Shown here piece by piece: positions 27,845 through 59,730 of a stretch of 64,000 nucleotides of DNA. A program made the position numbers and the translations under genes. Source of the DNA: Dyadobacter sp. 676. GTDB taxonomy: Bacteria; Bacteroidota; Bacteroidia; Cytophagales; Spirosomataceae. A model generated the notes under the pieces. The model saw nothing but the letters and a program-made list of their open reading frames with translations. It had not been told where the DNA came from and made no database searches. The first letter of the stretch is position 1. Each line of letters opens with the position of its first letter. The stretch lies in assembly GCF_040448675.1 (NCBI RefSeq), contig NZ_CP159289.1:4943001-5007000 (forward strand), read 5' to 3'.

Positions 27845-28421
27845 ATGTACCGGCCCGCATTGAATAATGAAAAGGAGCTCCTGCGGCGCGTGGCCGGGGG
27901 GGATGAACGGGCTTTTACCGCGTTGTTCGACCATTACCACCAGCGTCTGGGGATGCATATTTACCGCATTACCCGTTCCGAACCCGTCGCGGAGGAGCTG
28001 GTGCATGACGTTTTCCTGAAAATATGGCGCAACCGGGAACTGCTTTCGGAGATCGAAAACTTTTCGGTTTACCTTTTCGTGGTGTCCAAAAAACGCGGCA
28101 TTGAACGCTTTGAAAAAGATCGCCGCCGAACGGGCCAGGTTCACCGGCCTCGACGGGGCTGCCGAAGATGAACCCGAACAGCCGGATGATTACCGCTACG
28201 CATTGATCGACGAGGCGATCGACCAGCTTCCTCCCCGGCAGCGGCAGGTATATGTGCTCAGCAGGCATCAGCGGTTGTCCTATAATGAAATAGCCATGCA
28301 AATGGGCCTCTCCCGGGAGACGGTCAAGAAATACCTCCAGATCGCTACGGCGTCCATCGTTTCCTACATCGGGAAAAGCGCGAAAATGAGCCCGTTTCTG
28401 GTTTTGAAAATTTTCTTCTAA
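27845..28421 (+). pseudogene. ECF sigma factor, frame broken in an A6 run
   Basis: The first frame (27845-28087) gives the sigma-70 region 2: NEKELLRRVAGGDERAFTAL, LVHDVFLKIWRNRELLSEI, FSVYLFVVSK. After six A's (28088-28093) the frame changes, and the second frame gives the linker and region 4: ALNALKKIAAERARF, IDQLPPRQRQVYVLSRHQ, LSYNEIAMQMGLSRETVKKY. Reading five A's joins them as VVSKNAALNALKKIAAE, a normal sequence of about 190 residues. As given, the gene would make a 100-residue truncated protein. It heads a sigma/anti-sigma/SusC/SusD locus, where loss of the sigma factor should reduce expression. Sequencing error, mutation or slippage are all possible. The start at 27845 could also be 27830. 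Confidence 0.85.
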
Positions 28422-28492
28422 AATTTTTCGGATGCAATAGCCCCTTTTTGGAAAGCCTTGCTGTCCTGTTGTTGAATAAGCACGACAGGGGT

Positions 28493-29659
28493 ATGGACCA
28501 CGAAGAACAAAAACGGATACAGCATCTTTTCGACCGCTACTACGCAGGCCGGGCAACACCGGCGGAGGAGGAAGAACTGATGCTTTACGTCCGGTCGGGG
28601 CGGTATGATGAGGCCGTCGAGCGGGCAATGAAACGGAATTGGCTCGAACCCGCGGATCAGGCGCCATTGTTCGATGCCTTGCAAAGCGAAAGTATGCTCG
28701 GTGCGATCCTCGCCTCGGGCCGGGCGCGCGGGTATCGGACCATGGGTATTTGGACAAGATATGCGGCCGCGGCGGCGGTGCTGGTGCTTGTGGCCGGGCT
28801 GTGGCTGCTCAGGAAGGCCTCCGAAAAACCCGCAGCCGTGGCGAATAGGGAAATACAGGACGTCGCACCCGGAAGAAACAGGGCCCTGCTGACGCTGGCC
28901 GACGGACAAGGCATCGAGCTCGACCGGGTCGGCAGCGGTTTGGTGGCCCGCCAGGGTAATACCGAGATTACGAAGCAGCAGGACGGTCTGGTGGTTTACA
29001 ATAATCGCCCGTCGGAAACGGCGACAGCCGGCCTCAATAAGATATCCACTCCCCGGGGCGGGCAGTACAAGGTGCAGCTTCCTGACGGCAGCAAAGTGTG
29101 GCTGAATGCCTCTTCGTCGATCCGGTTCCCGTCTGTTTTTCCGGCCTCGGAGCGTCGGGTGGAAATTACGGGCGAAGCGTATTTCGAAGTGACGAAAGAC
29201 CCCGCCAGGCCGTTCACGGTGCGTTTCAACGGTTCCGAGGTGCAAGTGCTGGGGACGAGTTTCAATGTAATGGCTTATCCCGACGAGCGTATTTCGAAAA
29301 CGACCCTGGTGGAAGGTTCCGTGTCGATCCGCAACAAGGGCGCACATGCCACGCTCCGGCCAGGCCAGCAGGCGGCGCTGTTGCCCGGTGGTCGCATCGA
29401 AACGGCTTTTACGACCGTGGAGGAGGCCGTAGCCTGGAAGGAAGGCATGTTTTATTTCAAAAATGCCGGCGTGAAAGAGGTTATGCGGCAACTTGCGAGG
29501 TGGTACGACGTAGAGGTCAGTTACCGGGGCGAAGTGCCGGTGAGGCAGTTTACCGGCAGGGTGTCGCGCAATGTGAACCTCTCCGAGGTCGTGGGAATGC
29601 TCCGGTATGCCGGGGTGAATTGCAGCGTCGCGAACAATACCATCGAGGTCGGACAATAG
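28493..29659 (+). CDS. FecR-family anti-sigma factor
   Basis: 388 residues from MDHEEQKRIQHLFDRYYAGR; the frame is open from 28448. The cytoplasmic N-terminal 85 residues should bind the sigma factor. A single membrane helix is at about 90-106 (AAAAVLVLVAGLWLL). The periplasmic FecR domain is at about 185-285 (TPRGGQYKVQLPDGSKVWLN, GEAYFEVTKDPARPF, VLGTSFNVMAYPDE). The C-terminal DUF4974 domain starts near 318 (FYFKNAGVKEVMRQLARWYD). It transmits the signal from the SusC-type receptor to the ECF sigma factor encoded 70 bases upstream. Confidence 0.95.
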   Translation: MDHEEQKRIQHLFDRYYAGRATPAEEEELMLYVRSGRYDEAVERAMKRNWLEPADQAPLFDALQSESMLGAILASGRARGYRTMGIWTRYAAAAAVLVLVAGLWLLRKASEKPAAVANREIQDVAPGRNRALLTLADGQGIELDRVGSGLVARQGNTEITKQQDGLVVYNNRPSETATAGLNKISTPRGGQYKVQLPDGSKVWLNASSSIRFPSVFPASERRVEITGEAYFEVTKDPARPFTVRFNGSEVQVLGTSFNVMAYPDERISKTTLVEGSVSIRNKGAHATLRPGQQAALLPGGRIETAFTTVEEAVAWKEGMFYFKNAGVKEVMRQLARWYDVEVSYRGEVPVRQFTGRVSRNVNLSEVVGMLRYAGVNCSVANNTIEVGQ

Positions 29660-29678
29660 GTTGCGTATACATATAAAC

Positions 29679-29692
29679 GTTTAAATTTAAAC
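29679..29692. promoter_or_regulatory. Perfect 14-bp palindrome upstream of SusC-type gene
   Basis: GTTTAAATTTAAAC lies 20 bases after the FecR stop and about 150 bases before the SusC-type start. It is the only perfect AT-rich palindrome in this spacer and may be a regulator site. A short cruciform-like chance match is also possible. Confidence 0.3.
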
Positions 29693-29843
29693 CCTTCTTG
29701 CTATGATAATCGCGCTCCATGTTCCTCCCTGAAACCGTGGTGCCTAAAACAAAAGGGAAAATGCGCTAACATTTTCCCCGCAGTTCAGGCGTAACCGAGC
29801 TTCTCTGAAAAGTCTTTTGTCATTCCTAAACTTTAACAAAGTT

Positions 29844-32800
29844 ATGAAAATTAACCTTTTGCCCCGCCTTCCGGCGGGCTGCAGGGCGCATATTGTTGCC
29901 CAAACCTTAATGACTATGACCAGGATCGCGCTTTTGCTTATCGTAACCCTCTCCCACGTGGTGGCGGACGGGTTCAGTCAAAAGATTTCCTTTCATGCCA
30001 GGAACCTGCCCCTGAAGACAGCGATGCGGGATATTGAAAAACAGACAGGCTACTCGTTTCTGTACGACGAGCTGGATCTGCCATCGTCGAAGCGGGTGTC
30101 GGTTAAGCTGAAAAACGCTTCGATCGATGAGCTGTTGCTGGCGGTTTTCGGAGATATGCCGTTGTCTTACAAAATTTTTCAACGGAATATTGTCTTGAAA
30201 AAGGCCGTGAAAGCTCCCACGCAGGAAACCACGATCCCAGCGCGGGTCCCGCCGATGCAGCCCGCGATTCGGCTCAATCAGCGGGCCATCGATCCATTGC
30301 CCGTAAGCACCGACCGCATCGTCCGGGGCCGTGTGACCGACGAAAACGGCAGCCCGTTCCCCGGCGTGAGCATCGTAGTCAAAAACTCGCAAACCGGTAC
30401 GGCAACCGACGCCAACGGCGAGTTTCGCCTGAGCATACCGGAGTCGCTCGCGGGACAGGGCGAACTGGTAATCGTGGCGAGTTTTGTAGGGTATAAAAAC
30501 CGCGAGATTCCCGTTGGCAACAACATGGAGCTGAACTTCGGGATGACCGTCGACACAAAAGCGCTGAACGACGTGGTGGTGATCGGGTACGGTACACAGA
30601 AACAGAGCAGCATTACCGGCTCGGTAGCTTCGTTACCCATGAAAAATGTGGCCAGCCAGCCATTAACGAGCCTCGACCAGGCCCTGGGCGGACAAATCGC
30701 CGGGGTGAATGTGGCGCAGACGAAGGGTGCGCCCGGCGGGGGCGTGTCCGTACGTGTACGCGGGACGGGGTCGATTGGGGCGGGGAACGAACCGCTGTAC
30801 GTGATTGACGGATTCCCGGTATCCGGCGATTTCAACAGCAATTTCAACCCGCTTTCGTCCATCAATCCCAATGATATCGAATCCATCGAAATACTCAAAG
30901 ACGCATCGGCTGCGGCTATCTACGGCTCGCGCGGAAGCAATGGCGTGGTGCTGGTGACGACCAAGCACGGCAAATCGGGGAAGTCGGTCGTGCAGCTGGA
31001 TACTTATTATGGTTTTCAGCAGGTAGCCAACAAGATCGATATGCTCGACGCACGCGAATACGCCGAATACAATACCGAGGCGCGCAACAATGCGTGGGTC
31101 GACCGGGGCGGTAATGCCAGCGATCCCAACAGTGTGCGGCCCGCGGCGCTGCAAATCCCGGAAATGTTTATGAACCCTGCGACATTAGGTAAAGGCACCG
31201 ACTGGCAGGACGAGGTTTTCCGCACGGCCGCTATTCAAAATCACCAGCTGTCGGTTTCGGGAGGGAATGATAAAACGACATTTTTTCTGTCAGGGGCCTA
31301 TTTCAAACAGGACGGCATCGTCATGAAAACCGGTTTCGAGCGGTATTCGGCGCGGGTGAACCTCGACCACCATATTTCCAGAAATGTAAGCGTGGGAATA
31401 AACCTGTCGCCTTCGTTTGCGACGAGCCGTATTCTGCCCGTAGAGGACCAGGTGTTTACAGGAGGGATTCTCGGCTCCGCATTGTCATTACCACCGACCG
31501 TGCCCGTTTACAATCCCGACGGCTCGTTTACGACACTGCTCGGCCCTTCGCCTTACAACATCGGGGTGATCGACAATCCGGTGGCCATTGCGAGCAAAAT
31601 CAAGGACAAACGCACGGTATTCAGGACATTGGGTAATGTGTATGCCGAAATAAAGCTGCTTGACGGTCTTAAATTCCGGACCTCTTTCGGCCTCGACTAC
31701 TCCGACGCCCGGGAAAATGCGTACTATCCGTCCGACCTGGGCTGGAACGGCGTTCCGGCGCCCGTACAGGCGAGAGCGATAGCGTCGACGGGACGTGATC
31801 TGAACTGGCTCAACGAAAACATTCTCAGCTATAAAAAAGTCCTCGGTACCAGGCACGAACTCGACCTCCTGGCCGGTTTCACAGCACAAAAGGCGCATGG
31901 CGAGTCGGCGGCACTGAATGCAACCAACTTCCCGACCGACCTGGTGCCCACGCTGAATGCGGGCCAGGTGACGGGCGGTGGTACCGGCATGTCGGAGTGG
32001 TCGTTGCTGTCGTTGCTGGCGCGTGTGAATTACACCTATTCCGGCAAGTACCTTTTCTCGGCAACCATGCGGCGCGACGGGTCGTCCCGATTCGGCGCGC
32101 GGAACAAATGGGGGACGTTCCCGTCGGTTTCAGCGGGCTGGTACATTTCGGAAGAAGGTTTCATGAAATCGCAGAACGCGGTAACCGACCTGAAACTGCG
32201 GGCCAGTTACGGATTGGCCGGTAACAACACGATCGGCAATTATAACCACATTGGTTTGCTTTCCAACCGCCGTTACAGTTTCGGGGCCGGAACCGGCTCG
32301 CTGGTTTACGGACTTTACCCGAGTTCGATCAGCAACGAGCAGCTTGGCTGGGAAATGATGCATCAATTCGATATCGGTGTCGATTTCGCATTGCTGCGCA
32401 ACCGGCTCAGTTTTACCATTGATTTTTATAACAAAAACACCACCGACCTACTGCTTAATGTACCCGTGCCGGCTTCCACCGGCTATGAAACAGCCCTTCA
32501 GAACATTGGCAAGCTCAATAACCGCGGCTGGGAGTTTAGTATTAATTCCAAAAACCTGACCGGCGCATTCAAGTGGTCGACCGCATTCAATATTTCCTTT
32601 AATAAAAACAAAGTGGTGAAACTGGGGCCATCCGGCAACCCCATCATTTCTAAAAGCCCTTCTTTCAGCCCGAACACCCATATCACCAGGATCGGCTCGC
32701 CGATCGGCAGTTTCTGGGGATACGACGCGATCGGCGTTTACCAGTCGCAGGAGGATGTCGACAACAGCCCGAGGGTGACCGGCAATGCGGGATCGCGTCC

Positions 32801-33386
32801 CGGCGACCTGAAATTCCGGGACATCGACGGCGACGGCACCATTACCCCGAGCGACGTGACCATCATCGGCGACAACAGCCCCGACTTCTTTTACGGCATT
32901 ACCAATAATTTCTCCTACGGCCCGTTCAGCCTGAGCATATTGGGGGACGGCGTGCAGGGCATCCAGCTTTTGAACGGTTCCCGCCGGAATATCGGGCTGG
33001 TGAACGGCAGTTACAGCCGGAAAGACGTACTGGGCCGCTGGCAGTCTCCCCAGCAGCCGGGCGACGGCCGCACACCGCGGGCGAATGTGGCGCCGACGGG
33101 CGGTAATGTGAGCTACGTATCGAGCTTGCTGGTCGAAAATGCTTCGTTTTTCAGGATCAGGAATATCAATTTGAGATACAACCTTCCTGAAAACGTTTCG
33201 AAGTCGGTATATCTGCAAAATGCGGCGGTGACGCTTTCGGTACAAAACGCCTTCACATTTACACCATACCGCGGCTATAACCCCGAGCAAAGCCTGAACG
33301 GCAGCAGCGCGCTCACGCCCGGCGTCGATTTCAACGGTTACCCGCTGGCCCGCACGTTTACCCTTGGACTGAACCTGACATTCTAA
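29844..33386 (+). CDS. SusC/RagA-type TonB-dependent outer membrane transporter
   Basis: 1180 residues from MKINLLPRLPAG, with an unusually long export signal (LMTMTRIALLLIVTLSHVVA). Order: an STN signalling domain at about 50-105 (ISFHARNLPLKTAMRDIEKQ, YSFLYDELDLPSSKRVS); a carboxypeptidase-regulatory-like domain at about 155-235 (VRGRVTDENGSPFPGVSIVV); TonB-box-like LNDVVVIGYGTQ; the plug (LGGQIAGVNVAQTKGAPGGG, IGAGNEPLYVIDGFPV, DASAAAIYGSRGSNGVVLVT); and the beta-barrel ending ARTFTLGLNLTF. The STN domain means it can also signal to FecR. With SusD it imports oligomeric nutrients across the outer membrane. Confidence 0.96.
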   Translation: MKINLLPRLPAGCRAHIVAQTLMTMTRIALLLIVTLSHVVADGFSQKISFHARNLPLKTAMRDIEKQTGYSFLYDELDLPSSKRVSVKLKNASIDELLLAVFGDMPLSYKIFQRNIVLKKAVKAPTQETTIPARVPPMQPAIRLNQRAIDPLPVSTDRIVRGRVTDENGSPFPGVSIVVKNSQTGTATDANGEFRLSIPESLAGQGELVIVASFVGYKNREIPVGNNMELNFGMTVDTKALNDVVVIGYGTQKQSSITGSVASLPMKNVASQPLTSLDQALGGQIAGVNVAQTKGAPGGGVSVRVRGTGSIGAGNEPLYVIDGFPVSGDFNSNFNPLSSINPNDIESIEILKDASAAAIYGSRGSNGVVLVTTKHGKSGKSVVQLDTYYGFQQVANKIDMLDAREYAEYNTEARNNAWVDRGGNASDPNSVRPAALQIPEMFMNPATLGKGTDWQDEVFRTAAIQNHQLSVSGGNDKTTFFLSGAYFKQDGIVMKTGFERYSARVNLDHHISRNVSVGINLSPSFATSRILPVEDQVFTGGILGSALSLPPTVPVYNPDGSFTTLLGPSPYNIGVIDNPVAIASKIKDKRTVFRTLGNVYAEIKLLDGLKFRTSFGLDYSDARENAYYPSDLGWNGVPAPVQARAIASTGRDLNWLNENILSYKKVLGTRHELDLLAGFTAQKAHGESAALNATNFPTDLVPTLNAGQVTGGGTGMSEWSLLSLLARVNYTYSGKYLFSATMRRDGSSRFGARNKWGTFPSVSAGWYISEEGFMKSQNAVTDLKLRASYGLAGNNTIGNYNHIGLLSNRRYSFGAGTGSLVYGLYPSSISNEQLGWEMMHQFDIGVDFALLRNRLSFTIDFYNKNTTDLLLNVPVPASTGYETALQNIGKLNNRGWEFSINSKNLTGAFKWSTAFNISFNKNKVVKLGPSGNPIISKSPSFSPNTHITRIGSPIGSFWGYDAIGVYQSQEDVDNSPRVTGNAGSRPGDLKFRDIDGDGTITPSDVTIIGDNSPDFFYGITNNFSYGPFSLSILGDGVQGIQLLNGSRRNIGLVNGSYSRKDVLGRWQSPQQPGDGRTPRANVAPTGGNVSYVSSLLVENASFFRIRNINLRYNLPENVSKSVYLQNAAVTLSVQNAFTFTPYRGYNPEQSLNGSSALTPGVDFNGYPLARTFTLGLNLTF

Positions 33387-33400
33387 CCCAACCCGAACTC

Positions 33401-34840
33401 ATGAAACGCAATATCATTATTTTCGGCTTCCTTTGCCTGCTGGCCTCGGGCTGCTCGGGATTTCTCGATCTGGCGCCTATCGACGCCACCAATGTGAAGA
33501 ATTTTTACAGGAATGCATCCGACATGCAGGCGGCCATCAATGCGGCGTACGGAATGCTCGCCAACAGCGGCGAATATGGGTATGCCTATTACAATGTGGC
33601 CGAAGTGCGATCGGACAACACCATGAACTGGGAAGGAGGCGGTAACCTGCCCGACGCCGAGCTGGACCAGTTTAAAATGGCATCTACCAATGAAATCATC
33701 CGCGTGATGTGGGTGGATACCTACCGGGGTATCCTCGCCGCCAACAGTGTGCTCGATCATATTGGCGGCGCGCAAATGGACGACGCGCTCCGGCAGCGGC
33801 TCACCGGCGAGGCGCAATTCCTGCGGGCGTTGCAATATTTCAATCTTGTCAGGACTTTCGGGGACGTGCCGCTGGTATTGTCCGAAACCAATTCCGTGGA
33901 CGAAGGTTACAGCCAGCCCCGCGTACCGAAGGCGGAAGTATATGCCCGGATCGTCGCCGACCTGGCGGAAGCGGAACAGAAACTCCCCGTATCTTACACA
34001 GGCAACGACATCGGCCGGGCAACACGCGGAGCGGCAAAGGCATTGCTGGGGAAGGTTTATCTCACCACCGGTGATTTTGCCAAGGCCAAAGACAAGCTGA
34101 AAGAGGTGATCGACCCGGGCACCTACAAGTTGCTGGACGACTACGCGGCGCTCTGGCCTGTCGCTAATGCGAATCACGAGGAATCCATTTTTGAAGTACA
34201 ATTCAAAAAAGGTGGAACGGGGACCGGAAGCAGCTTTTACAATAATTTCGCACCGCGTAACTCGGGCAGTTCTGTGATCAAGGTCGGCTTCGCCGGTGGG
34301 CGCAACCTTCCCACCGCCGACCTGATCGCCGCCTATGAACCGGGGGACTACCGGAAAAACGTTTCGCTGGCCCTGGGATATACCGACAACGTCACTGGCA
34401 AATACGTTGCCGACCCTTATACGCTTAAATTCCAGGACACGCCCTTTGCGGATGGCGACGCGGACAACAACTGGCCGGTATTGCGCTATGCCGACGTACT
34501 GCTCATGTACGCCGAGGCGGTGAATGCGGTAAACGGTCCTACGGCGGAGGCCTACGATGCGGTCAACGCGGTGAGAAAGCGTGCAAAACTGGCGGCGTTG
34601 CCGGGAGGTTTATCCAAACCGGCGTTTGCGCTGGCGATCGAACACGAGCGGCAGGTTGAACTGGCATTCGAAGGGCACCGGTGGTTCGACCTTGTACGTA
34701 CGGGACGGGCGGTGGCGGTTATGAACGAGCATTTCAAAGGCCCTGTCGTGCAGGAATTCAATGCCGTTTTCCCGATTCCACAAACGCAGATCGACATTAA
34801 TCCGAGCGGTATTAAACAGAATCCGGGATATAGTTTTTAA
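33401..34840 (+). CDS. SusD/RagB-type nutrient-binding outer membrane lipoprotein
   Basis: 479 residues, starting 14 bases after the SusC-type stop. Lipobox LASGC with Cys18. The SusD fold is clear: GFLDLAPIDATNVKNFY, MWVDTYRGILAANSVLDHI, LTGEAQFLRALQYFNLVRTF, RATRGAAKALLGKVYLTTGD, WPVLRYADVLLMYAEAVNAV, IEHERQVELAFEGHRWFDLV and FPIPQTQIDINP. It forms the lid over the SusC channel and captures the ligand. The ligand class cannot be read from sequence, but the M14 peptidase behind it suggests peptides or glycopeptides. Confidence 0.96.
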   Translation: MKRNIIIFGFLCLLASGCSGFLDLAPIDATNVKNFYRNASDMQAAINAAYGMLANSGEYGYAYYNVAEVRSDNTMNWEGGGNLPDAELDQFKMASTNEIIRVMWVDTYRGILAANSVLDHIGGAQMDDALRQRLTGEAQFLRALQYFNLVRTFGDVPLVLSETNSVDEGYSQPRVPKAEVYARIVADLAEAEQKLPVSYTGNDIGRATRGAAKALLGKVYLTTGDFAKAKDKLKEVIDPGTYKLLDDYAALWPVANANHEESIFEVQFKKGGTGTGSSFYNNFAPRNSGSSVIKVGFAGGRNLPTADLIAAYEPGDYRKNVSLALGYTDNVTGKYVADPYTLKFQDTPFADGDADNNWPVLRYADVLLMYAEAVNAVNGPTAEAYDAVNAVRKRAKLAALPGGLSKPAFALAIEHERQVELAFEGHRWFDLVRTGRAVAVMNEHFKGPVVQEFNAVFPIPQTQIDINPSGIKQNPGYSF

Positions 34841-39394: not shown

Positions 39395-40666
39395 TCAGAA
39401 GTACAGGGAGAAATGGTGCATTCGGCCATCGAAACGGTAGCCGATCCGCCAGCCGTAACGCTCGCAGATCTCGCGTGCGATCGCGAGCCCGAGCCCGCTG
39501 CCCGCATGCTCGCCCGACGCCTGCGCGAACCTCCTGAAAAGGTTCCCGGCCTGTAATGCCGCCGTGCCGGTATTGGAAATTGTCAGCATGCCTTCCACTA
39601 AATGCACCTGAATGCTGCCGCCTGCGGGCGTATAGCGCACCGCATTGACGAGCAGATTGGTCAGCAAAATCTCGACAAGCACCGGGTTGGCCTCCACTGA
39701 GAAAGCCCCGATGTCTCTGGTGTAATGCAATGCATTGTTTTCAAACCGGTCGGTAAACTGCGCGGCCACGTCCGCAAACACCCGGTCGAGCGCCAGGTGC
39801 TCTTTTTCTTCGAATTGCGCATGCTCGATGCGTGCCAGCAGGAGCAGGTTTTTGTTGATCCGGGATACGCGGTTGATCGCCTGGTAAACCTGCTCGACGA
39901 TCCGCATTTGCGCCGCATCCAGCGACTGGCTTTGCAGGAGCATATCCAGCCGGGACTTGACGATCGCCAGCGGCGTCTGCAATTCATGGGAGGCGTTTTC
40001 GGTAAATTCCTTCTGTTGGCGGTACGACGCCAGGCTGCCCTGCATCAGAGCGTCGAGACTGGCATTCAGATCGGTAAATTCGGTCACATCCGAGGCGGGT
40101 AGCGGCACAGGCTTGCCCGTTTCCAGGCGGAAATTATGCAGGGCACTTAGCGTGTCGTAAAACGGCTGCCAGATGCGCAGGGCGGTTTTACGGTTGAGAT
40201 AAATGAAACCGGCGAGGAGCAGCATACTGAAAAAGATCGTCACGGCGGCAATGGCCAGGATCGTCTCGTCGATCTCTTCCATATTCGTTTCCACCAGCAC
40301 ACGGTACAGCTTGTTGTTGACCCGGATGTCTGTGAGCAGGCAGCGGAACTGCTCCCGGTCGTTCATGAAACTGTCGAACCGGATAATGGTATAAAGGCTG
40401 TCGGGGCGGGGAGCGGCGGCCTGGCTGAAAGAAAAGCCCGGCTGGACCTTGTCGAGTACGGCGATCATATTATCCACGGCGGTGTCGGGCAGGCTCAGGT
40501 GCGTAAGGCGTTTTTCCAGCTTCTCACGGATGGCATAGTGGTGCTTGTCCAGCTCGTTTTCCCAGATCCAGTCGATGATCAGGAAATAAACCGGAATGCT
40601 GACGACCAATACCACGAACGCATAAACCACCAGGGGCCGCAGGCTCCGATCGAGCAGTTTTTTCAT
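39395..40666 (-). CDS. Membrane sensor histidine kinase
   Basis: 423 residues from MKKLLDRSLRPLVV; this start overlaps the end of the response-regulator gene by 4 bases, a mark of translational coupling. Membrane helices at about 11-32 and 136-157 enclose a periplasmic sensor of about 100 residues. HisKA carries H227 (FTENASHELQTPLAIVKSRL). The ATPase domain has LLTNLLVNAVRYTP (N box), ISNTG (a short G1) and GSGLGLAIAREICERYGW (G2). With the OmpR-type regulator it forms a full two-component pair that probably controls the TonB receptor and PAP2 genes downstream. Confidence 0.94.
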   Translation of the reverse strand: MKKLLDRSLRPLVVYAFVVLVVSIPVYFLIIDWIWENELDKHHYAIREKLEKRLTHLSLPDTAVDNMIAVLDKVQPGFSFSQAAAPRPDSLYTIIRFDSFMNDREQFRCLLTDIRVNNKLYRVLVETNMEEIDETILAIAAVTIFFSMLLLAGFIYLNRKTALRIWQPFYDTLSALHNFRLETGKPVPLPASDVTEFTDLNASLDALMQGSLASYRQQKEFTENASHELQTPLAIVKSRLDMLLQSQSLDAAQMRIVEQVYQAINRVSRINKNLLLLARIEHAQFEEKEHLALDRVFADVAAQFTDRFENNALHYTRDIGAFSVEANPVLVEILLTNLLVNAVRYTPAGGSIQVHLVEGMLTISNTGTAALQAGNLFRRFAQASGEHAGSGLGLAIAREICERYGWRIGYRFDGRMHHFSLYF

Positions 40667-41337
40667 CCTTCCCATTTGTAACCCGTTCCGTAGATTGTTT
40701 TCAGGTAATTGCCGTAACCGGCTTCGCTCAGCTTCCTTTTCAGGTTCTTGACATGCGCGTACACAAAGTCATGGTTGTCGAACATATCGGCAATGTCGCC
40801 CGACAAATGCTCCGCCAACGCACTTTTGGCGATTACCCGGTTTTTGTTCCCGATAAAAAAGAGCAAAAGATCGAGCTCTTTTTTTGTCAGGACGACCGCC
40901 GTGCCATGGACTGTGACCGATTTGCTCAGCAGATCTACCCTTAACTCGTTTTGTACGACGCTGTTGTTGTTGTCAAAGTTCCTTCTTCGGATCACCGAGT
41001 AAATGCGGGCGGCGAGCTCCGGCAAATGAAAAGGCTTGGCCAGGTAATCGTCCGCTCCGGCATGTAACCCCTTGATTTTGTATTCATAATCGCCTTTGGC
41101 CGAAATGATAATGACGCCGTCCTGCTGTCCCTGTTTTTTAAGGGTTTCGAGAATATCCATGCCGTCACCGCCGGGAAGCATCAGATCCAGCAGAATACAG
41201 TCGTACCGGTACAATTCCACTTTCTCCCGGGCCTGCGCCCAGGTGCCTGCGTACTCGCACAGGTAATCCTGCGAGGACAGATAGGCCCCAATGCTTTGCG
41301 ATAATTCGGGTTCGTCCTCGACGATCAGGATCTTCAT
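40663..41337 (-). CDS. OmpR/PhoB-type response regulator
   Basis: 224 residues. The receiver (1-118) has E7/D8, phosphoacceptor D51 in ILLDLMLPGGDG, S79 and K101 in DYLAKPFHLPEL. The C-terminal winged helix is at about 128-222 (VLTKKELDLLLFFIGNKNRV, FDNHDFVYAHVKNLKRKLSE, YLKTIYGTGYKWEG). The gene is the first of the leftward regulator-kinase-receptor-phosphatase operon and is translationally coupled to the kinase. Confidence 0.95.
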   Translation of the reverse strand: MKILIVEDEPELSQSIGAYLSSQDYLCEYAGTWAQAREKVELYRYDCILLDLMLPGGDGMDILETLKKQGQQDGVIIISAKGDYEYKIKGLHAGADDYLAKPFHLPELAARIYSVIRRRNFDNNNSVVQNELRVDLLSKSVTVHGTAVVLTKKELDLLLFFIGNKNRVIAKSALAEHLSGDIADMFDNHDFVYAHVKNLKRKLSEAGYGNYLKTIYGTGYKWEG

Positions 41338-44332: not shown

Positions 44333-46718
44333 CTATTCCGAGCGGAGCGATTTGACCGGGTTTGTAAGCGCGGCTTTGAGTGACTGGTAGATGACCGTCA
44401 GCCAGCAAACCAGCAATGTCGCCGCACATGAGGCTACGAATATCCAGATACTCATGTTGGTTTTATAGGGAAAACTTTGCAGCCATTTGTTCATTACGAA
44501 CCAGGCCACCGGCACGGCTATCGGAAATGAGAACAGGACGAGACGTGTGAAATCTTTCGATAACAAAATGACAACGCTGGACACCGACCCGCCCAGCACT
44601 TTACGAACTCCGATCTCTTTTACGCGTTGTTCGGTAGTAAAAGTGGCAAGTCCGAACAGGCCGAGGCAGGCAATCAGAATTGTGAGGGCCGAAAACGCCG
44701 TGCATATCCTGCCACGCAGTTCATCGGCGTGATACGCCGTCTGGAAATCCTGGTCGAGGAAGCGGTATTCAAATAGCTTGTCGGGATAAACCTGCTGCCA
44801 TTTCTGGCCGATGTAAGCAAGTGTTTCCGCAGTGTGTTGTGTTCGGATCTTGACATGGATAACGCCATTTCCCCGGCGGTAGATCATAATCAGCGGCTCG
44901 ATCGGATTGTAGAGCGACTGCTGGTGAAAATCGCGGACGACCCCTACCACCTGTGTGGTCGGCGGCGGATTTTTGCCGTCGGCCGGAACTGTGCCCAGCA
45001 TGACCTTTTTTCCCAGCGGTTCTTTCCAGTTCATTCGCTTCACCGCCGCTTCATTAATCAGCACGCTATTGGCTGTATCTGCCGGAAGCTCGCTCGAAAA
45101 ATTCCGGCCGGCTACCAGTTTCATACCCATGGTTTTCAGGTATTGGTCGTCAATCAACGTCGGTTTGAAAGCCATTTCTTTCATGCCCGTATTGGACTCT
45201 ACGGTGAAGATCACCCGGCCGCCGATATTGCTTACCGGCGCCGATGCGGACGCCACCCGCTCGATATTCGGGTTTTCCAGCAACAATTGGCGGAAGGCAT
45301 TGTATTTCTCGGGCGATTGCTGGTCCTGGAAATCGATAGTTAGCACTTGTGAGCGGTCATAGCCCAGATCTTTATCCCTCATATAATTGAGCTGGCGGTA
45401 AACCACCCAGGTGCAAATCAGCATGATCAGCGAAATGGAAAACTGTGTCACTACCAGCGCCTTCCTGAAAAAACCGCCGCCTTTCGCCTTAAAAGTACCT
45501 TTCAGGACTTGCGCGGGTTCGAAAGCCGATAAATAAAATGCCGGATAGCTGCCGCTTATGAGCCCGGTGAACAGCACGATGCCCAGCGCGATCGATACGA
45601 ACCGGGGACTGAGCAATTGCATGTAGCTGATCGCTTTGCCAGACACATTATTAAAGAATGGCAAGAGCAGCGCTACCAGCAGGAGGCTTAAAATGAGCGA
45701 AATGCTTGCGATTAATATCGATTCAGTCAGAAACTGCCGTACCAGCGCACCTTTCAGCGAGCCCATTACTTTGCGCAGGCCCACTTCCCTGGCCCGCCGG
45801 GCCGATTGCGCCGTGGCCAGGTTCATATAGTTGATACTGGCAATCAGTAACATAAAAAACGCCACCGCGGTAAATGTATAGACGTATCCGATATCGCCGT
45901 TCGACTCCCCGTCGAATTTGGAATACAGGTGAATGCGGGTCAGGGGCTGTAACTGATAGGTAATATGAATGCCCATTCTTTTGAAAATACCCGACATGTA
46001 TTTTTCGTAGAGCTGCGGAAAACCGGCTTCGAGCTTTTTCAGGTCGGCGCCGGGCGATACCAGAATATAGCTATTGATATAGAAACCGCCCCAGCCGTCG
46101 GCATTCCGCTGGTTCCGGTCGAGCGAAACCAACGCGTTGAAGGTGAAATGCGAGTTTTTAGGAACATCGTAGATCACGCCGGTCACCTTATATGACGTGG
46201 TATCGTTGGTTTGCAAAACCTGTCCCAACGCAGGTGTGTGGCCGAAGAACCTTTCAGCCACGCGTTTCGTGAGCACGATACTGCCGGGTTGCCGCAGCGC
46301 TATTCGGGGATCACCCTCGACGAAATGGTGTGTGAATACATCGAAAACGGTGGAATCCGCGGCGTAGATATCTTCTTCATAAAACCGCCGTTCGCCTTGC
46401 CGGAACATCGTGCGGCCATTCGGAAAGAAACGGACGTAATTTTCCACGAAAGGATAGTCCTGTTTGAGCGTTTTGACCAACGGAGGTTGCGTACTAACCC
46501 ATTTATTGATCTTGTCCGGCTCGCGGATATACGAAACAATGCGGTAAATCCGGGAGGCTTTTTTGATGGTAACGGTCGTAACTGAGCTCGTCGGTCACGT
46601 AGAGGAGCAACAACATCCCGCAGGTCACGCCGATGGTAAGTCCGAGAATGTTGATCAGGCTATAAAATTTGTCCTTGACCAGGGTGCGAAATGCCAGTTT
46701 CAGATAGTTTTTCAGCAT
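44333..46718 (-). pseudogene. MacB/FtsX-type ABC transporter permease, frame broken in an A6 run
   Basis: The start at 46718 (MLKNYLKLAFRTLVKDKFYS) is followed by the first membrane helix and LSYDRYHQK. In an A6 run of the coding strand (46559-46564) the frame changes. With five A's the protein continues KASRIYRIVSYIREPDKIN and so on for about 790 residues. The remainder has a MacB-like periplasmic domain, three helices around an FtsX domain (NLATAQSARRAREVGLRKVM), a second periplasmic domain and a second FtsX domain (EQRVKEIGVRKVLGGSVSSV). This two-module permease is common in Bacteroidota. No ATPase gene is adjacent. It should transmit force across the envelope for export or lipid work. As given, translation stops after about 70 residues. 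Confidence 0.85.
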
Positions 46719-47225
46719 ATAACAGGAGGTTTTGCCTTTGGGGGATCCAATGCCTCGATATTTTAAATCCATACCAGGCCGAAAGCGATGCCGGAGAGGG
46801 GTTCCGGCTTGAAAGTTGTTCATTCGGGAACATCAGGTGTCCGATAATGAACAGTGGTATGCCGCTCGTTTGCAGCATGTTTGGTAAATAAAAGTTTACT
46901 TATCCTTACAACGGGATGACGATGGGTTGGGCTGTCACGGGGCGGCCCCGCCGCCGGTTCATTTCGCCGGCACCGCCCCTCGGATACGCGATCCATTGCC
47001 AATGCCGGCAACGGGTTTTTTGTGTGGCGGGTGTAAATACGTGTTTTTTTAAACAGGTGTTTACACGCGTTTTTGAAGAATTATTTCTACGCAACTTTGT
47101 CGAACAAAAGCTTTTGTATGGTGGAGATCAGCTACCACTTTAAAAAACGGACTTACCTGTAAAAGTATTCGTTACAGGGCGGCCCCCGTACGCTTTCGAA
47201 CGGGGAAAATAGTCATACATCCACA
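46719..47225. other. Divergent spacer upstream of the unknown paralogue pair
   Basis: About 500 bases. It holds the long imperfect inverted repeat at 47028-47069. A small region rich in GC (46935-46985) contains facing GGCGGCCCCGCC-type stretches. No gene and no exact TAnnTTTG element was found. Confidence 0.4.
47028..47069. promoter_or_regulatory. 16-base imperfect inverted repeat around a T/A loop
   Basis: CGGGTGTAAATACGTG (47028-47043) and CAGGTGTTTACACGCG (47054-47069) are inverted copies matching at 13 of 16 positions, with TTTTTTTAAA between them and TTTTTG after. It could be an operator, a hairpin leader or a terminator. It is about 155 bases upstream of the gene at 47226. Confidence 0.45.
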
Positions 47226-52910: not shown

Positions 52911-52937
52911 TTGTTTTATGCAAACAAAATAATTTTG
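52911..52937 (+). promoter_or_regulatory. Promoter of the Crp/Fnr gene at 52962
   Basis: TTG (52911-52913) and TAATTTTG (52930-52937) match the Bacteroidota -33/-7 pattern with a short 16-base spacer. The start codon follows 24 bases after the -7 element. Confidence 0.45.
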
Positions 52938-52961
52938 ACGCTAACCGACCTGGCATAACAA

Positions 52962-53537
52962 ATGCAGCAACTCATCACGCATATCAGCAAATTCGGTTCG
53001 ATCGACGCGGGTAAACTGGCGGAGATAGGACAATATTTCGAGGCACGGACTTTCAAAAAACGCGAGCTTCTTCTGGAAGAAGGGCAGCGGTGCAACGAGA
53101 AGTTCTTTATTGTAAAAGGATGCGTGAACCTGTTTTACCTCCGGCAAAATGGCGTGGAGCAGACTATTGATTTCGCATTGGAAAACTGGTGGACGACCGA
53201 TTTTATGGCGTTTCAGAATGGTGGAACGGCGCAGTTTTCCATCCGGGCGATCGAAACCACGGAAGTCCTGAGCATTTCGGCCGCCCGGCAACGGGAAATG
53301 CTCGCCAACGAAATACCTGAACTTCACGGGTACTTCCACGCCGTGTTCCAGCGGGCATACGCGGCTTCCCAGGTCCGGATCAGAAAGCTGTACGAATTGT
53401 CCAAGGAGGAACTCTACCACGACTTCATCAGCAGTTATCCCGCCTTCATTCAACGGGTACCGCAATACCTGCTCGCATCTTTTTTGGGTTTTACACCCGA
53501 ATACCTCAGCGAAATCCGAAAGAAATCCCTTTCTTAA
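52962..53537 (+). CDS. Crp/Fnr-family transcriptional regulator
   Basis: 191 residues. Cyclic-nucleotide-binding fold at about 10-120 (KKRELLLEEGQRCNEKFFIV, GCVNLFYLRQNGVEQTIDFA, IRAIETTEVLSISAARQREM), then a long helix and a helix-turn-helix at the end (VPQYLLASFLGFTPEYLSEI). It lacks Fe-S cysteines. This type commonly controls one neighbouring operon in Bacteroidota. The carboxymuconolactone-decarboxylase-like gene starts 56 bases after its stop, on the same strand, and is the likely target or operon partner. Confidence 0.9.
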   Translation: MQQLITHISKFGSIDAGKLAEIGQYFEARTFKKRELLLEEGQRCNEKFFIVKGCVNLFYLRQNGVEQTIDFALENWWTTDFMAFQNGGTAQFSIRAIETTEVLSISAARQREMLANEIPELHGYFHAVFQRAYAASQVRIRKLYELSKEELYHDFISSYPAFIQRVPQYLLASFLGFTPEYLSEIRKKSLS

Positions 53538-53593
53538 ACCAGCTTAAGAAGTTCCTCCTTCCGGTTGGCCAATTTTGTATTGAAAACAAAACG

Positions 53594-54049
53594 ATGTCAA
53601 CCATGAAGAAAATTGTTAAACGCCTGGATGTCTGGAAAGAAGAACCCCTCTACTGGACCCATATGTCGGCCATCGAAAAGCGGGTGTATGCCTCGTCGGT
53701 TCCCAGAAGCCTGATCGAGCTCATTAAGATAAGGGCCTCCCAAATCAATAAATGCGTGTTTTGTATCGATTACCATACCAACGAGGCCTTGCAGCTCGGG
53801 GAGTCGCCCCGCCGGATATTCGTGCTTTCGGCCTGGAAGGAAAGCCCGCTGTTTACCGAGGTTGAGAAAAGCGCCCTGCAACTGACGGAAGAAATCACCC
53901 ATATTTCGGTGGATGGCGTCGCGGATGAAACTTATGAGCGGATAAAAACCCATTTCAGCGCCGGCGAGATCGCCGATCTCATCATATGTATTTGTCATAT
54001 CAATTTTATGAACCGGATCGGCATTTCCACACAAACGGTTGCAATTTAA
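53594..54049 (+). CDS. Carboxymuconolactone decarboxylase-like (AhpD-fold) protein
   Basis: 151 residues. The AhpD-like active site is intact: C54-V-F-C57 followed by H61 (INKCVFCIDYHTNEALQLGE). The preceding IELIKIRASQ helix and later LQLTEEITHISVDG and DLIICICHINFMNRIGIS are also typical. AhpD-fold members act as peroxidase-linked thiol reductants, and the CxxC pair suggests a redox role rather than decarboxylation. It follows a Crp/Fnr regulator, a frequent combination in this phylum. Cytoplasmic. Confidence 0.92.
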   Translation: MSTMKKIVKRLDVWKEEPLYWTHMSAIEKRVYASSVPRSLIELIKIRASQINKCVFCIDYHTNEALQLGESPRRIFVLSAWKESPLFTEVEKSALQLTEEITHISVDGVADETYERIKTHFSAGEIADLIICICHINFMNRIGISTQTVAI

Positions 54050-54066
54050 GAGGTATGAAGCGGACG

Positions 54067-54091
54067 CCTGGCCGGTCGGCCGCCGGCCAGG
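54067..54091. terminator. GC-rich hairpin between convergent genes
   Basis: CCTGGCCGG (54067-54075) pairs perfectly with CCGGCCAGG (54083-54091) over a 7-base loop. There is no T tract, so termination is likely but not certain. Confidence 0.45.
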
Positions 54092-54183
54092 ACGGTGCTT
54101 AACCGATTGCCTCGATAGATAATGCCTGGCGGCATGTGTGAATGCGGCTACACACCCGCGCGATCAACCGGAGCTAATACCGG

Positions 54184-55062
54184 CTACCTGGCTTTCAGTT
54201 TCGCCAGCGCCTCCCGGGCGCCGTTGTTGCCGGGGTTCAGCGAGAGCGATTTCTCGTAGGCCGGGATCGCCTCGTCCGTGCGGTTCAAAAGCATCAGGCA
54301 TTCGCCGTAGCTGTCGAATGTGTTGAATGCTTCTGGATACAGTTCCGTATTCAGCCGGAATACCTTGACGGCCTGTTCGGGTGTCTTAATTATTTGATAA
54401 CCAAAAGTGTTAATGCCCTGCTCGCTGACGTCGTACCGCGATCCTTCCCCTTTCCCGACCTCCGCTCTGATAAAGGCGATCGTTTCGTCTACGGACTTCG
54501 CCGTTGCATGGTATTGAGAGATCGGAAGCAAATTCAGCCGCCTTTCTTTGATTTTTTGTTCGGCGAGTGTTTCTACGTTGTACGCACGCCTTTCTTCATC
54601 GGTAATTTTTGTCGAATCGATCTTATAACGCTCGAACCGGGCATTGGGGCCCATCTTTACATACTGGGTCCCGTAAACCTGCGGCATACCTTTTCGCATC
54701 AGGTCCCTGTCGATGGCCGCCGCCAGCAACCACTTATTGATGGTCGTATCCAGTGAAATGGCTTTTTTCATCAAACGGATCGCCATACCGGAAGCTAACG
54801 TGTCTGTTCCGTGCTGGAAGATCATCGCGCCGTGGTAGAAATCCTTCCCGGTAACTACCTTGTTGGAATCGAGAAGCTCGGCTACCCGTTTTCGCCTGAG
54901 CGCGTCGTCCTTGTTAAGCTGGTTCCAATCGATACTGGCCACTTTCCTTGCAGACTGATCTTCGTCGTACATTCTTTTGATCTCCGCATTATCGGCGGTC
55001 TGCGCACGGACAACGGGCAGCAATGCGAAATATATCAGGAGCGCGGGAATGGCGAATTTCAT
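54184..55062 (-). CDS. Exported tetratricopeptide-repeat protein
   Basis: 292 residues with a signal peptide (MKFAIPALLIYFALLPVVRAQ). Residues 22-190 hold the DUF6624-like pattern of Bacteroidota proteins (NAEIKRMYDEDQSARKV, FYHGAMIFQHG, WLLAAAIDRDLMRKGMPQVY GTQ). The last 80 residues form two tetratricopeptide units (AVKVFRLNTELYPEAFNTFD and AIPAYEKSLSLNPGNNGARE). Expected in the periplasm as a binding or scaffold protein. It appears monocistronic. Confidence 0.82.
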   Translation of the reverse strand: MKFAIPALLIYFALLPVVRAQTADNAEIKRMYDEDQSARKVASIDWNQLNKDDALRRKRVAELLDSNKVVTGKDFYHGAMIFQHGTDTLASGMAIRLMKKAISLDTTINKWLLAAAIDRDLMRKGMPQVYGTQYVKMGPNARFERYKIDSTKITDEERRAYNVETLAEQKIKERRLNLLPISQYHATAKSVDETIAFIRAEVGKGEGSRYDVSEQGINTFGYQIIKTPEQAVKVFRLNTELYPEAFNTFDSYGECLMLLNRTDEAIPAYEKSLSLNPGNNGAREALAKLKAR

Positions 55063-55230
55063 TTGCTGATCGGGTTTTAATGAAACGCGGGGACCGGTAC
55101 CACAAAAGCGGGGTGTTTTGAATATATACTGGAATCAGATACTACCATCGTAACCGAGATTGTCTGCCTATGGGGTGGCCGAACACCGCAAACGATTCCG
55201 TTGTCTATATTCCCGGCGTTTCGTCTACAT

Positions 55231-55238
55231 TATTTTTG
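55231..55238 (+). promoter_or_regulatory. Possible -7 element for the kelch-like gene
   Basis: TATTTTTG matches TAnnTTTG and lies 57 bases before the start at 55296. No -33 TTG was found at the expected spacing. Confidence 0.3.
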
Positions 55239-55295
55239 CCGGCGCAGGTATTTCGCTTTCTTTATATATGTTGTTCAAAATCAGCATTTATAGTT

Positions 55296-56322
55296 ATGAA
55301 AACATACCGGAACCTGCTGGCGGTAATGCTTCTCGCACCACTGCTGGCCTGCCTTGCCCGTTTCAATGCGTTTGAAACTTTTAGTCGGCCGCCGGCCAAC
55401 CCGGGCCGATACGAATGGAAGCAAGTGCTGCCGCCCGGCAACGGGACGCAGCAACATGAATGGAAACCCGGCACTTTTCCGATGGGCATCGTTCCCGTGG
55501 TTGCTTTCGACGGGCAACTTTGGATGACCGGACAAAAAGCGGCCTGGTCGTCGGTGAATGGTACCACCTGGGTGCGTCACGCGAAGAAGGACTGGGGCGA
55601 ACGCATTAATTTGTCGAACATCTATTTTAATAACAGGCTCTGGACTTACGGAGGAATGCGTTACCAGGATAGGGAGCTGGTCAATGAAGTGTGGTCTACC
55701 CGGAATGGCTCCGATTGGCAACGGGCAGGAAACGCGGCCTGGGAACCCAGAAAGGGGCACGCATTGGTAGTTTTTAAAAACAAGTTATGGCTTTTAGGCG
55801 GCACGACGAAGGTCTCGCGGGACTTCGAGCCTCTTGAAATGAAGAACGACATCTGGTCGTCGGTCGACGGGTTTACGTGGACGAGGGAAGTAGCCGGTGC
55901 GCCGTGGTCGCCGCGGGATTCGCCGCAGGTGGTGGTTTTGCGGGACACGCTGTACCTGCTCGGCGGGCAGGGCCTGGCCGACGTATGGCGCTCCGTGGAC
56001 GGAAAAAACTGGGTACAACTCACGGCCGGGGCCGATTGGGGGAAACGATACGACAAGGGCGTACACGCATTCGACGGCAAGCTGTGGGTTTTTGGTGGCC
56101 GCGATACCAATCCCGATCATTATAAGGCCGCTCAGAACGACGTCTGGCACTCGGCAAATGGTGCAGACTGGACGCGTCACGACGGACATGCGCCATGGAG
56201 CGTCCGCAGCGGGCTGCATAGCGTGGTATTCCGCGATCAGATCTGGCTTTTCAGCGGCAAACACACCGGCGGAAACCCGGTCTGGAAAGGTGATATCTGG
56301 GTGCTGCAAAAAAAGCGAATGA
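55296..56322 (+). CDS. Exported kelch-like beta-propeller protein, end altered by an A7 run
   Basis: From MKTYRNLLAVMLLAPLLACL (lipoprotein-like or cleaved signal) the mature part consists of repeats of the form VVAFDGQLWMTGQ, YFNNRLWTYGG, VFKNKLWLLGG, VLRDTLYLLGGQ, AFDGKLWVFGG and VFRDQIWLFSG, each followed by W-x-S-x-x-G-x-x-W. This is a kelch/galactose-oxidase-type propeller of about 340 residues. As written the frame stays open to 56594 across the spacer and start of the next gene. With one A fewer in the A7 run at 56308-56314 it ends at 56322 as VLQKSE, the natural propeller end. I annotate that version. Open frame upstream to 55170 has no signal peptide. It may be co-expressed with the cytochrome gene. 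Confidence 0.72.
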
Positions 56323-56454
56323 CCGTTACTGCGCCCTTACGGTTATGGATTCAGGGTTTTTGTATTAATTTTTTAAACTTTATTGATAATCAATGGCTAA
56401 GAATTGAACCAGGTTGGCTTTTAACTTCATTAAGGTGTATTTCGATGAAAATCC

Positions 56455-59400
56455 ATGAAATCTCTTACGAAGAAGCGGGCTTTTTTGAAGTGCGGGAAAG
56501 CCGCGGCTGCGACGTATTTCTGCCTGGCGCTCGTCGGTTGCGGCGTGGAAAAACCCCGGGAGGTGGAACTGGCGATCAGGGAGCTACCCGATGAATTGGA
56601 TTTCAATTACGACGTCAAACCGATTCTCTCCGATAAATGCTTTGCCTGCCACGGCCCCGACGCAAAAAAGCAGAAGGGCGGCTTGCGGCTGGATACCGAA
56701 GAAGGTGCTTACAAAGCGCTGAAAAAGACGAAGGGGCGGCATGCGATCGTACCGGGCGATCTGGCCGCGAGCGAAGTGTACACGCGGCTCGTCTCGCAAG
56801 ACCCCGGGTTGAAAATGCCGCCGCCCGCGTCTAACCTTGCATTATCTGTAAAGGAAATAGCCGTACTTACCCGCTGGATCGAGCAGGGCGCTAAATACAA
56901 ACCGCATTGGTCGTTCATAAAACCCGAAAAAGTCGGAGTCCCGAAACCAAGGCTGGCAGGTTGGGCCAGGACACCGATCGACAATTTTATCCTCGAACGG
57001 TTGGACAGGGAAAAACTGCGCCCTTCGCCGGAGGCCAGCCGCGAAGATCTGATTCGTCGGGCAAGTTTCGATCTGACCGGTCTGCCGCCCACATTGGCTG
57101 AAATCGATGGATTTGTGGCCGATAAATCCCCCCGATGCATACGCCCGGCTCATCGACCGCCTGTTGCAATCTCCGGCTTATGGCGAACGCATGGCCGGCG
57201 AGTGGATGGACGTTTCGCGCTATGCCGACAGCGACGGTTACCTCGACGACAAGCATCGCGATTTCTCCCCCCTGGCGCGACTGGGTGATCGGCGCCTTCA
57301 ACCGGAATATGCCTTACGACAGGTTTATTACCATGCAGCTGGCTGGTGACCTGTTGCCCGGCAAAACCCGTGAAAGCATTCTGGCCACAGCATTCAACCG
57401 CCTGCACAAGAAAAGCTCCGAGGCGGGTATCGTTTTCGAAGAATACAGGGTGGAATACAATGCGGACAGGGTGCAGACGGTGGGGCAGGGGATTCTGGGG
57501 CTTTCGGTGCAATGTGCGCGATGCCATGACCATAAGTACGATCCGATCAGTCAGGAAGCATATTATAAAATGTTCGGGCTTTTCAACAGCACCGACGAAA
57601 CCGGAAGCCCGGTGTATGGACCCGACCAAACGCCCGGGCCTGCATTGCTGCTCACCAACAAGGAAAATGAGGAACTGCTCCGTTTTTTTGACCGGCAAAT
57701 CACCGGCTTGCGTAACCGTCTGGAAAAGACCAGGGCCGATTCGCAGGCCGATTTTAGAAACTGGCTGGGTACCGGAAAATTGACCGCCGGGATGGTCGGC
57801 CGGCAGGCCGCCAGTGGAATGGTGGCCTATTATCCTTTCGACAAAGCTTTCGCAAACGGCGGAAAAGAGACGGTCACACCCAACTTATTGAATAAAAACC
57901 AGCCGGCCCAATGCACTGAAATCGTCCTGAAACCAGGCGTGAAAGGCAATGCCTACTTTGTATCCGACTATAATTCCGTCAGGCTGGGGCATAACATCGG
58001 CTGGCACGAGCGTACGGAACCTTTTTCGGTGGAGCTTTGGATCAATCCGGCCACAGTTTATCCCGACGCGGGTATTTTTTACCATTGCGAGGACCTCCGC
58101 CTGGGTTACAAGGGGTATTCGCTGAAACTGGCCGACAACAAATTACAGTTCATCATCGCACACTCCTATCCGCAGAACGCCATTCAGGTCAGCACGGTAG
58201 CGGCGGTCCCGAAGCAGAAATGGACGCAGGTAACGGTGACCTACGACGGATCCAGCAGGGCAGCGGGAGCGAAAATCTATATCAATGGGGAGCTGGCAAA
58301 GGTGACCGTCGACCGCGACTATCTTTACAAAGGCATTTTGTATGAAAAGGATATTCATACGTATGGTTTTCAGGGATTTATGCTCGGTCAGCGTAACCTG
58401 CTGATCCCCTTCAAGGATGGGGGGCTCGACGAACTGAAAATTTTCGACAAGGAATTGACGGCCCTGGAAGTTCTGTACAATTACGACGCCGGAAAGGTTG
58501 CCGGAATACTAAGCAAGCGGGGCCGGCCAGCCGAAATGGCGATGTTGAAGGCATTTTACGACGCCCGTTTCAACGCCCGTGTGGCTGCCCTGAGCGATAG
58601 CCTGAAAGCCGGTATGGACGCGCAGAACAAACTGGTAAACAGCATTCCGGAACTGATGGTAATGGGCGACCTGCCCAAGCCCCGGCCAACTTACCTGCTC
58701 ACAAGGGGTGCCTACAACGCGCCCGGAAAGCAGGTGACGCCGGGTGCATTGGAAACGGTAATGCCCTTCGAGGGAAGGTTTCCACCGAACAGACTGGGGC
58801 TGGCACGCTGGATCACCGATAAAAATAACCCGCTCACGGCGCGGGTGTTCGTAAACCGCATTTGGCAAATGCATTTCGGAAACGGCATAGTGCGCTCGTC
58901 GGCCGATTTCGGCAACCAGGGAAACCTGCCGACCCACCCGCAGCTGCTCGACTGGCTCGCGGTCGATTTTATGAATTCCGGTTGGAATATCAAACGGCTG
59001 CATAAGCTTATTATGCTCTCCGCTACCTATCGGCAAAGTTCCGTAACCACGCCGGAACTGCTTGAAAAAGATCCGGACAACGAACTGCTCGCAAGAGGCG
59101 CCCGGTTCCGTTTTACGGCCGAAATGATCAGGGATAATGCATTGTTTATCAGTGGGCTGATGGTGAATAAAATGGGTGGCCAAAGTGTGTATCCTTATCA
59201 GCCAGCCGGGCTTTGGGACGAGCTCAGCGACAAGGTATGGCGCTACAAATATCTTCAGGAACCGGGCGAGGGGCTATACAGGCGAAGCCTTTACACCGTT
59301 TGGAAAAGGACCTCGCCCCCGCCTTCGATGCTGATCTTCGACGCCCCCGAGCGCGGCGAATGCGTGGCGAAGCGTCGCTCCACGAGCACACCGTTACAAG

Positions 59401-59730
59401 CGCTGGTGCTGCTCAACGACCCGCAATATGTGGAAGCCGCCCGGGCCCTGGCCGAACGGGTTTTGCACGAAACGCGGGGCATAAATTCCACCGATATGGC
59501 TTTCAGGCTCATTACCGGCCGCAGGCCGGACCGGGCGGAGCAAAAAAATACTCTCGGAGTTTTATGCCGGCGAACTCGCCCGTTTCCGGGCCCGGCCCGC
59601 GCAAGCGCTCGAATACCTGCGCACGGGCGAACGTAAATGGGACCGGACGCTGAAACCAGAAGAAATCGCCGCACTGGCCACAGTTGCCAACGCGGTTATG
59701 AATACGGACGAAGGTTATACCCGCAAATAA
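56455..59730 (+). pseudogene. Planctomycete-type cytochrome c lipoprotein (PSCyt1-DUF1549-LamG-DUF1553), three frame breaks
   Basis: A lipobox ALVGC puts Cys29 after the signal. Then come the PSCyt1 haem site C62-F-A-C65-H66, DUF1549 (TPIDNFILERLDREKL, ASFDLTGLPPTLAEIDGFVA, second haem-like CARCHDHKYDPIS), a LamG/concanavalin-like insert (58000-58480; FSVELWINPATVYPDAGIF), and DUF1553 (RLGLARWITDKNNPLTARVF, TPLQALVLLNDPQYVEAARA). Three breaks occur: C6 at 57128-57133, C6 at 57267-57272 and A7 at 59542-59548. Removing one base in each gives about 1090 continuous residues ending at 59730. The function of this family is unproven; it is found with DUF1501 partners as here. It should sit in the periplasm or at the outer membrane. 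Confidence 0.82.

Follow-up and report, generated by a model that had tools for sequence, protein, structure and literature searches.

According to the available part of PMC3711429, a frame break that occurs in a single genome and is confirmed by BLASTp is expected to be a sequencing error, and sites used for slippage are often eight bases or longer. Programmed transcriptional slippage, e.g., in dnaX and IS elements, likewise alters the frame at homopolymers, and in many genomes A/T runs are evidently selected against at a length of nine, as given in the accessible sections of PMC1088944. A third type of system is found in long-read assemblies, where single-base homopolymer indels fragment genes, lower completeness and are detected by way of relatives; the hallmark of the nanopore case is deletions that follow long homopolymers (PMC12007338, Kastor, as far as the available text goes).

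The DNA analyzed here, termed the window, is a stretch of 64 kb (bases 4,943,001–5,007,000) within a single contig of 7,284,078 bases from a Dyadobacter genome. Several genes in this genome show frame breaks that have properties of all three systems. As with the GeneTack singletons, the frame change is present in one genome, has homology on both sides and is expected to be a sequencing error, but GeneTack counts across genomes, whereas here there are many breaks in one assembly and these are tied to run length (PMC3711429, available part). The breaks are at homopolymers as in programmed slippage, but the programmed sites described in the available part of PMC1088944 are longer and are used for expression, whereas here short runs are involved and relatives lack the frame break. 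There is a likeness to the long-read assemblies in effect on genes and completeness, and in detection through relatives. However, the confirmed errors here are insertions and not deletions as in the nanopore case, and G/C runs are hit hardest, so that the error profile does not point to a particular sequencing platform (PMC12007338, available text).

Homopolymer runs and frame breaks in the window

Six runs had been listed by a sequence-only reading of the window, and all six are found with the positions and lengths given there (Table 1).

Table 1. Runs associated with frame breaks, and the gene with three breaks; positions are those of the window and +1 denotes one extra base
Feature	Position	Strand	Comparison or content
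A6 run in ECF sigma factor gene	28088..28093	+	+1 vs 7/7 relatives; Sigma70_r2 and Sigma70_r4_2 in separate frames
T6 run (coding-strand A6) in MacB/FtsX-type ABC permease gene	46559..46564	-	+1 vs 11/11 relatives
A7 run closing kelch-repeat gene at 3' end	56308..56314	+	extra base probable; kelch proteins of 5 relatives end here
C6 run in PSCyt1-PSCyt2-LamG-PSD1 (DUF1549/DUF1553) gene	57128..57133	+	+1 vs 12/12 relatives
Second C6 run in PSCyt1-PSCyt2-LamG-PSD1 gene	57267..57272	+	+1 vs 11/11 relatives
A7 run close to 3' end of PSCyt1-PSCyt2-LamG-PSD1 gene	59542..59548	+	+1 vs 6/6 relatives
Bulk of PSCyt/PSD1 gene, three breaks	56455..59636	+	ORFs, Pfam domains, frame changes

In the ECF sigma factor gene, region 2 is within positions 27797–28144 and region 4 is within positions 28119–28421 in another frame. 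The break in the ABC permease gene cuts off an N-terminal piece (46503–46823) from the segment 44333–46480, and the extra base is at or adjoining the T6 run. The permease is 744 aa in length here, compared with 792–857 aa in the 31 next-best proteins listed. The PSCyt/PSD1 gene is present in two pieces, 56455–57288 and 57135–59636, with the PSCyt1, PSCyt2, Laminin_G_3 and PSD1 domains distributed across both, and a third frame carries the 3' end past the A7 run. The piece of this protein is 818 aa here; 116 of 119 other proteins listed have at least 1,050 aa. The segment 57135–59636 also has a match to PF07953 (24.7 bits, cut-off 23.8), which overlaps a far stronger Laminin_G_3 match. It is read as a probable resemblance in lectin-like fold and not as a toxin gene.

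Every window run of six or more bases was aligned to up to 12 relative genomes, and a run was considered testable when at least two relatives aligned. There are 81 such runs, and 33 are testable. Five of the 33 have one base more than every aligned relative, which amounts to 47 of 47 comparisons when summed. At 28 of the 33 the majority of relatives display no frame-changing difference, and at runs 1848 and 61969 a single relative each is off by one base. The proposal of one base too many at six runs is therefore confirmed for 28088, 46559, 57128, 57267 and 59542, and is plausible for 56308, a run that is unaligned. What had been counted as six independent insertions is more properly five that are shown plus one that is probable.

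At some sites the extra base can be located only approximately, to a few bases, e.g., for 46559 the gap falls directly next to the T run in many alignments. At this permease site one relative (G045) also has six Ts, yet in total it has one base fewer there and is in frame. The A6 run of the sigma factor site is likewise present in three distant relatives (G054, G039 and G012), and these, too, have one base fewer in total and keep the frame. Since runs of the same length are found in relatives that have a shorter stretch, the private item is the extra base and not always the run length. A check of run lengths in relatives, as had been suggested, thus gives a divided answer: the extra base is absent in all aligned relatives, but a run of equal length occurs in the three sigma factor sequences and the one permease sequence.

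An unguided protein-level scan (2,971 ORFs, 138 relative loci) reveals 14 places in the window with a frame change. The five places with at least 11 supporting loci are the five aligned breaks, and the remaining nine have at most three each. For all five breaks a run of at least six bases lies no more than 25 bases away; this holds for 4.7% of random covered positions, and the location of the breaks at homopolymers is therefore not due to chance.

The A7 run at 56308–56314 yielded no alignment to relatives across or past the run. The kelch proteins of the five relatives shown end two residues into the A7 point, and the kelch frame of the window continues beyond it into the next gene. Because the proteins of the relatives stop where the window frame reads on, this run probably carries one extra base.

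The +1 error elsewhere on the chromosome

The ileS gene, which encodes isoleucyl-tRNA synthetase, provides a case outside the window. A tRNA-synt_1 family search shows IleS in all 8 relatives as one open frame of 1,144–1,172 aa. Here the gene consists of two frames of 346 and 862 aa, the E. coli IleS protein likewise aligns across two frames, and there is no second ileS copy among the matches of the family search in this genome. The break is at an A7 run (G000:C1:2043658-2043664) that exceeds its counterpart in each of the two relatives compared by one base. The ileS stretch displays no further gap relative to the two relatives over 3.3 kb, with 88% identity. A free-living bacterium is not expected to survive without isoleucyl-tRNA synthetase, and the ileS sequence as written is therefore hardly right. 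Homopolymer error would be expected to strike genes that are unlikely to be lost as well as others, and ileS is such a gene. The four other genes of this genome that PF00133 matches are open over 883, 958, 693 and 500 aa, in agreement with relatives. These, together with the 28 of 33 window runs that are in order, show that the error is not universal.

Private frame-changing short indels were counted in the aligned parts of the window and in one other 20-kb stretch, with blocks that overlap by about an eighth. This genome has nine (seven insertions and two deletions) in 46.3 kb aligned, compared with seven, one of them 14 bases in length, in 307.9 kb for nine relatives combined. The nine represent the five window sites, the coding site L160 14814, and L160 8833, L160 18149 and window position 56447. 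Six of the nine are shown to be coding, and all six are insertions; the remaining three (L160 8833, L160 18149 and window position 56447), which include both deletions, are of unsupported coding status.

The same +1 error is found at six other places on the chromosome. Stretch L152 has one extra base near a C6 run, near a G7 run and near an A4 run, and stretch L157 has one extra base near each of two G7 runs, each relative to a single genome (G046). One extra base is also present at a G7 run in L309 compared with the four relatives shown, and at a T5 run in L160 compared with seven relatives. The genes compared with the single relative are presumably, as named from their sequences, RsmE-like, sulfatase-like, acyl-CoA-reductase-like, SDR-like and TonB-receptor-like. 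The gene compared with four relatives we take to be thiamine-pyrophosphate-enzyme-like, and that compared with seven encodes a conserved protein of approximately 585 aa. A split at a G7 run is also seen in miaA, as judged from the frames and a MiaA motif by use of an E. coli query and not a Dyadobacter alignment.

Stretches L152, L157 and L309 were chosen from pointers given by a tblastn scan, the candidates of which were accepted only after a check at the DNA level; L160 and L165 were picked independently of the scan. The tblastn event counts (33 clusters in this genome versus 32 in controls) are too noisy for use, and the scan was kept only as a source of candidates. Because broken and antisense ORFs served as queries, mirror events appear in the controls. 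Ten candidates were dropped on the DNA check as non-coding, at a gene end or unclean: L152 13276, L152 14837, L157 8383, L157 10366, L157 13356, L157 19036, L167 8163, L295 3779, L295 19267 and L306 12931. A DNA alignment was sought for L169 5424, L277 15383, L277 15949 and L286 5485 and none was obtained. A looser tblastn run additionally listed L154 3424 and L167 9550, which are candidates at the protein level only.

A search with 89 E. coli protein queries of 1.264 Mb of this genome plus the ileS stretch gave 23 matches kept at ≥ 110 bits and 60% coverage. One of the 22 matched genes other than ileS is split (miaA); ileS is left out of this count because its stretch was fetched as already known to be split. 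The genome has a completeness of 95.3% in one contig, compared with 99–100% in 45 of 47 genus-mates, and this lowered value fits the presence of many broken marker genes. Two protein searches for a match from the same species show none above 85% identity among the best 120 listed in each, and the nearest other proteins among the matches listed are 85% and 82% identical. Of the matches with a named source, the best belong to Dyadobacter.

Codon model and run spectrum

A homology-free codon model trained on long ORFs was used to ask for a frame change across each run that has a coding signal on both sides. The sample consists of 1.264 Mb of this genome (17%) and 877 kb of relatives, with control stretches that come partly from the same region in several genomes and are not fully independent. 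Values quoted are from the laxer setting with 210-base flanks unless given for the stricter one with 150-base flanks. Under the stricter setting three control genomes were pooled with one codon table (31 testable runs), and for the laxer setting they were retrained singly.

The G/C runs of six or more give a +1 change in 29 of 61 and a -1 change in 1 of 61, compared with 0 of 17 in the relatives. With 150-base flanks the values are +1 in 10 of 17 and -1 in 0 of 17, with 0 of 4 in the relatives. For A/T runs of six or more there are 22 +1 and 10 -1 changes in 511 runs here, and 6 and 2, respectively, in 467 runs of the relatives. Strand changes, which represent model noise, are found at 28 of 511 of these A/T runs here and at 8 of 467 in relatives; as this noise is commoner here, the A/T part of the signal is softer. 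All runs of six or more taken together display +1 in 51 of 572 here versus 6 of 484 in relatives (Fisher p = 5e-9). Runs of four and five follow this pattern as well, with +1 changes in 119 of 8,129 here and 38 of 6,521 in relatives, and -1 changes numbering 80 and 48. The run spectrum is in agreement, with G7/C7 and G6/C6 runs in a proportion of 34 : 89 here and 2 : 11 in 400 kb of controls, which are poorer in G+C (46.9% versus 51.3%).

The sensitivity of the model is low, in that two of the five window sites are flagged per setting (46559 and 57267 with the stricter, 46559 and 57128 with the laxer). There is also a false positive, as the T6 run at window position 40658 is called -1, yet 8 of 8 relatives are without an indel. 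Two ORFs overlap at this run (40658–40663), i.e., 39395–40675 and 40663–41337. A C9 run at L289:1434-1442 (G000:C1:501434-501442) displays a frame change of the opposite sign, which two extra bases would match. Scaling of 40–51 events, i.e., with or without noise subtracted, to 7.28 Mb suggests that there are perhaps 230–290 detectable breaks genome-wide, a number extrapolated from 17% of the genome that covers runs with clear coding on both sides.

Explanations of the breaks

The breaks can be attributed with high confidence to errors of the assembled sequence and not to the organism. The confirmed coding errors are insertions only, are at or adjoining runs, and are in unrelated genes, one of which is ileS, with the extra base absent in relatives. 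Homopolymer error leads one to expect that the extra base is private to this genome, as seen at the five window sites, and that it recurs, as seen in unrelated genes elsewhere. Consensus error is the best explanation because of this privacy, this recurrence in unrelated genes that include ileS, and the low completeness. The sequence-only reading had arrived at consensus error in homopolymers, and the 47 of 47 comparisons, the other chromosome sites, ileS and the codon model all lend it support. A base caller or consensus step would over-call run length by one, most commonly in G/C runs of six or more, more rarely where A or T is repeated six or seven times, and occasionally in runs of four or five. 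Genes that are otherwise intact would then be shifted by +1, at several distinct regions of the chromosome. Two points are inferences on our part, namely that the organism itself has the shorter sequence and at which step the error was introduced.

The artefact is of an ordinary kind but is on a large scale. Anyone working from the assembly would score many intact genes as dead, and there is a risk of inferring gene loss, hypermutation or recoding where none exists. The advice not to treat the genes as dead is upheld: in the organism itself the broken genes are almost certainly intact, and they should be flagged as probable assembly errors. Error is separated from biology here without reads, by run-by-run comparison with relatives, the direction of the shift, an essential gene and a controlled codon model.

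Real breaks would imply a hypermutator or decaying strain in which lengthened runs have turned genes into pseudogenes. The three breaks within the PSCyt/PSD1 gene are in line with decay, and homopolymer indels are a mark of lost mismatch repair. However, ileS is broken in the same way although no second copy was found in the family search, and the remainder of its stretch is free of gaps relative to both relatives compared. MutS is open at 864 aa, which is the length in five of six relatives (887 in the sixth). Replication slippage is expected to yield indels of both signs, and the G/C runs of six or more show 29 +1 changes against one -1 change; the A/T runs are noisy in this respect (22 and 10 of 511). 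The broken ileS, the open mutS frame and the strong +1 bias at G/C runs are thus left unexplained by decay or hypermutation, which is very unlikely.

Control by slippage, in which a shift of RNA polymerase or the ribosome at the runs would yield some full-length protein, had been raised as the alternative to consensus error. It accounts for the location at homopolymers and for frames that are open on both sides, and in some bacteria slippage may occur on runs of fewer than nine bases, according to the available part of PMC1088944. Yet a conserved run and frame break among orthologues, as slippage would lead one to expect, is absent at the five sites, where no aligned relative has the extra base. 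As the runs have only six or seven bases and are often G or C, no frame break is conserved, and the affected genes are unrelated and without a common function, slippage control fails and its probability is close to nil.

Equally improbable is reversible phase variation, whereby changes in run length switch genes and the assembly has caught one state. The homopolymers are inside coding sequence, and poly-C and poly-G runs serve this role elsewhere (PMC3711429, available part), but the runs here are short, ileS and miaA are among the genes hit, and the changes reach 29 of 61 testable G/C runs of six or more, or nearly half. In addition, the sequences of relatives are mostly interrupted at both C6 sites and at the A7 site, which leaves little to vary. 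That the longer runs are real and that in this Dyadobacter lineage an unusually permissive RNA polymerase or ribosome drops or skips a base at short homopolymers in hundreds of genes, ileS included, deserves hardly any credence.

Two additional features of the chromosome were observed. A gene at G000:C1:1516968-1517717, which we take to be MutS2-like, has an open frame of 545 aa, compared with 803–893 aa in 6 of 6 relatives, and is probably another frame break. Stretch L160 contains a repeat of about 60 bases at L160:5962-6024 (G000:C1:3405962-3406024) for which a search of seven relatives gave many matches, in either orientation, and this appears to be a palindromic REP-like element of the genus.
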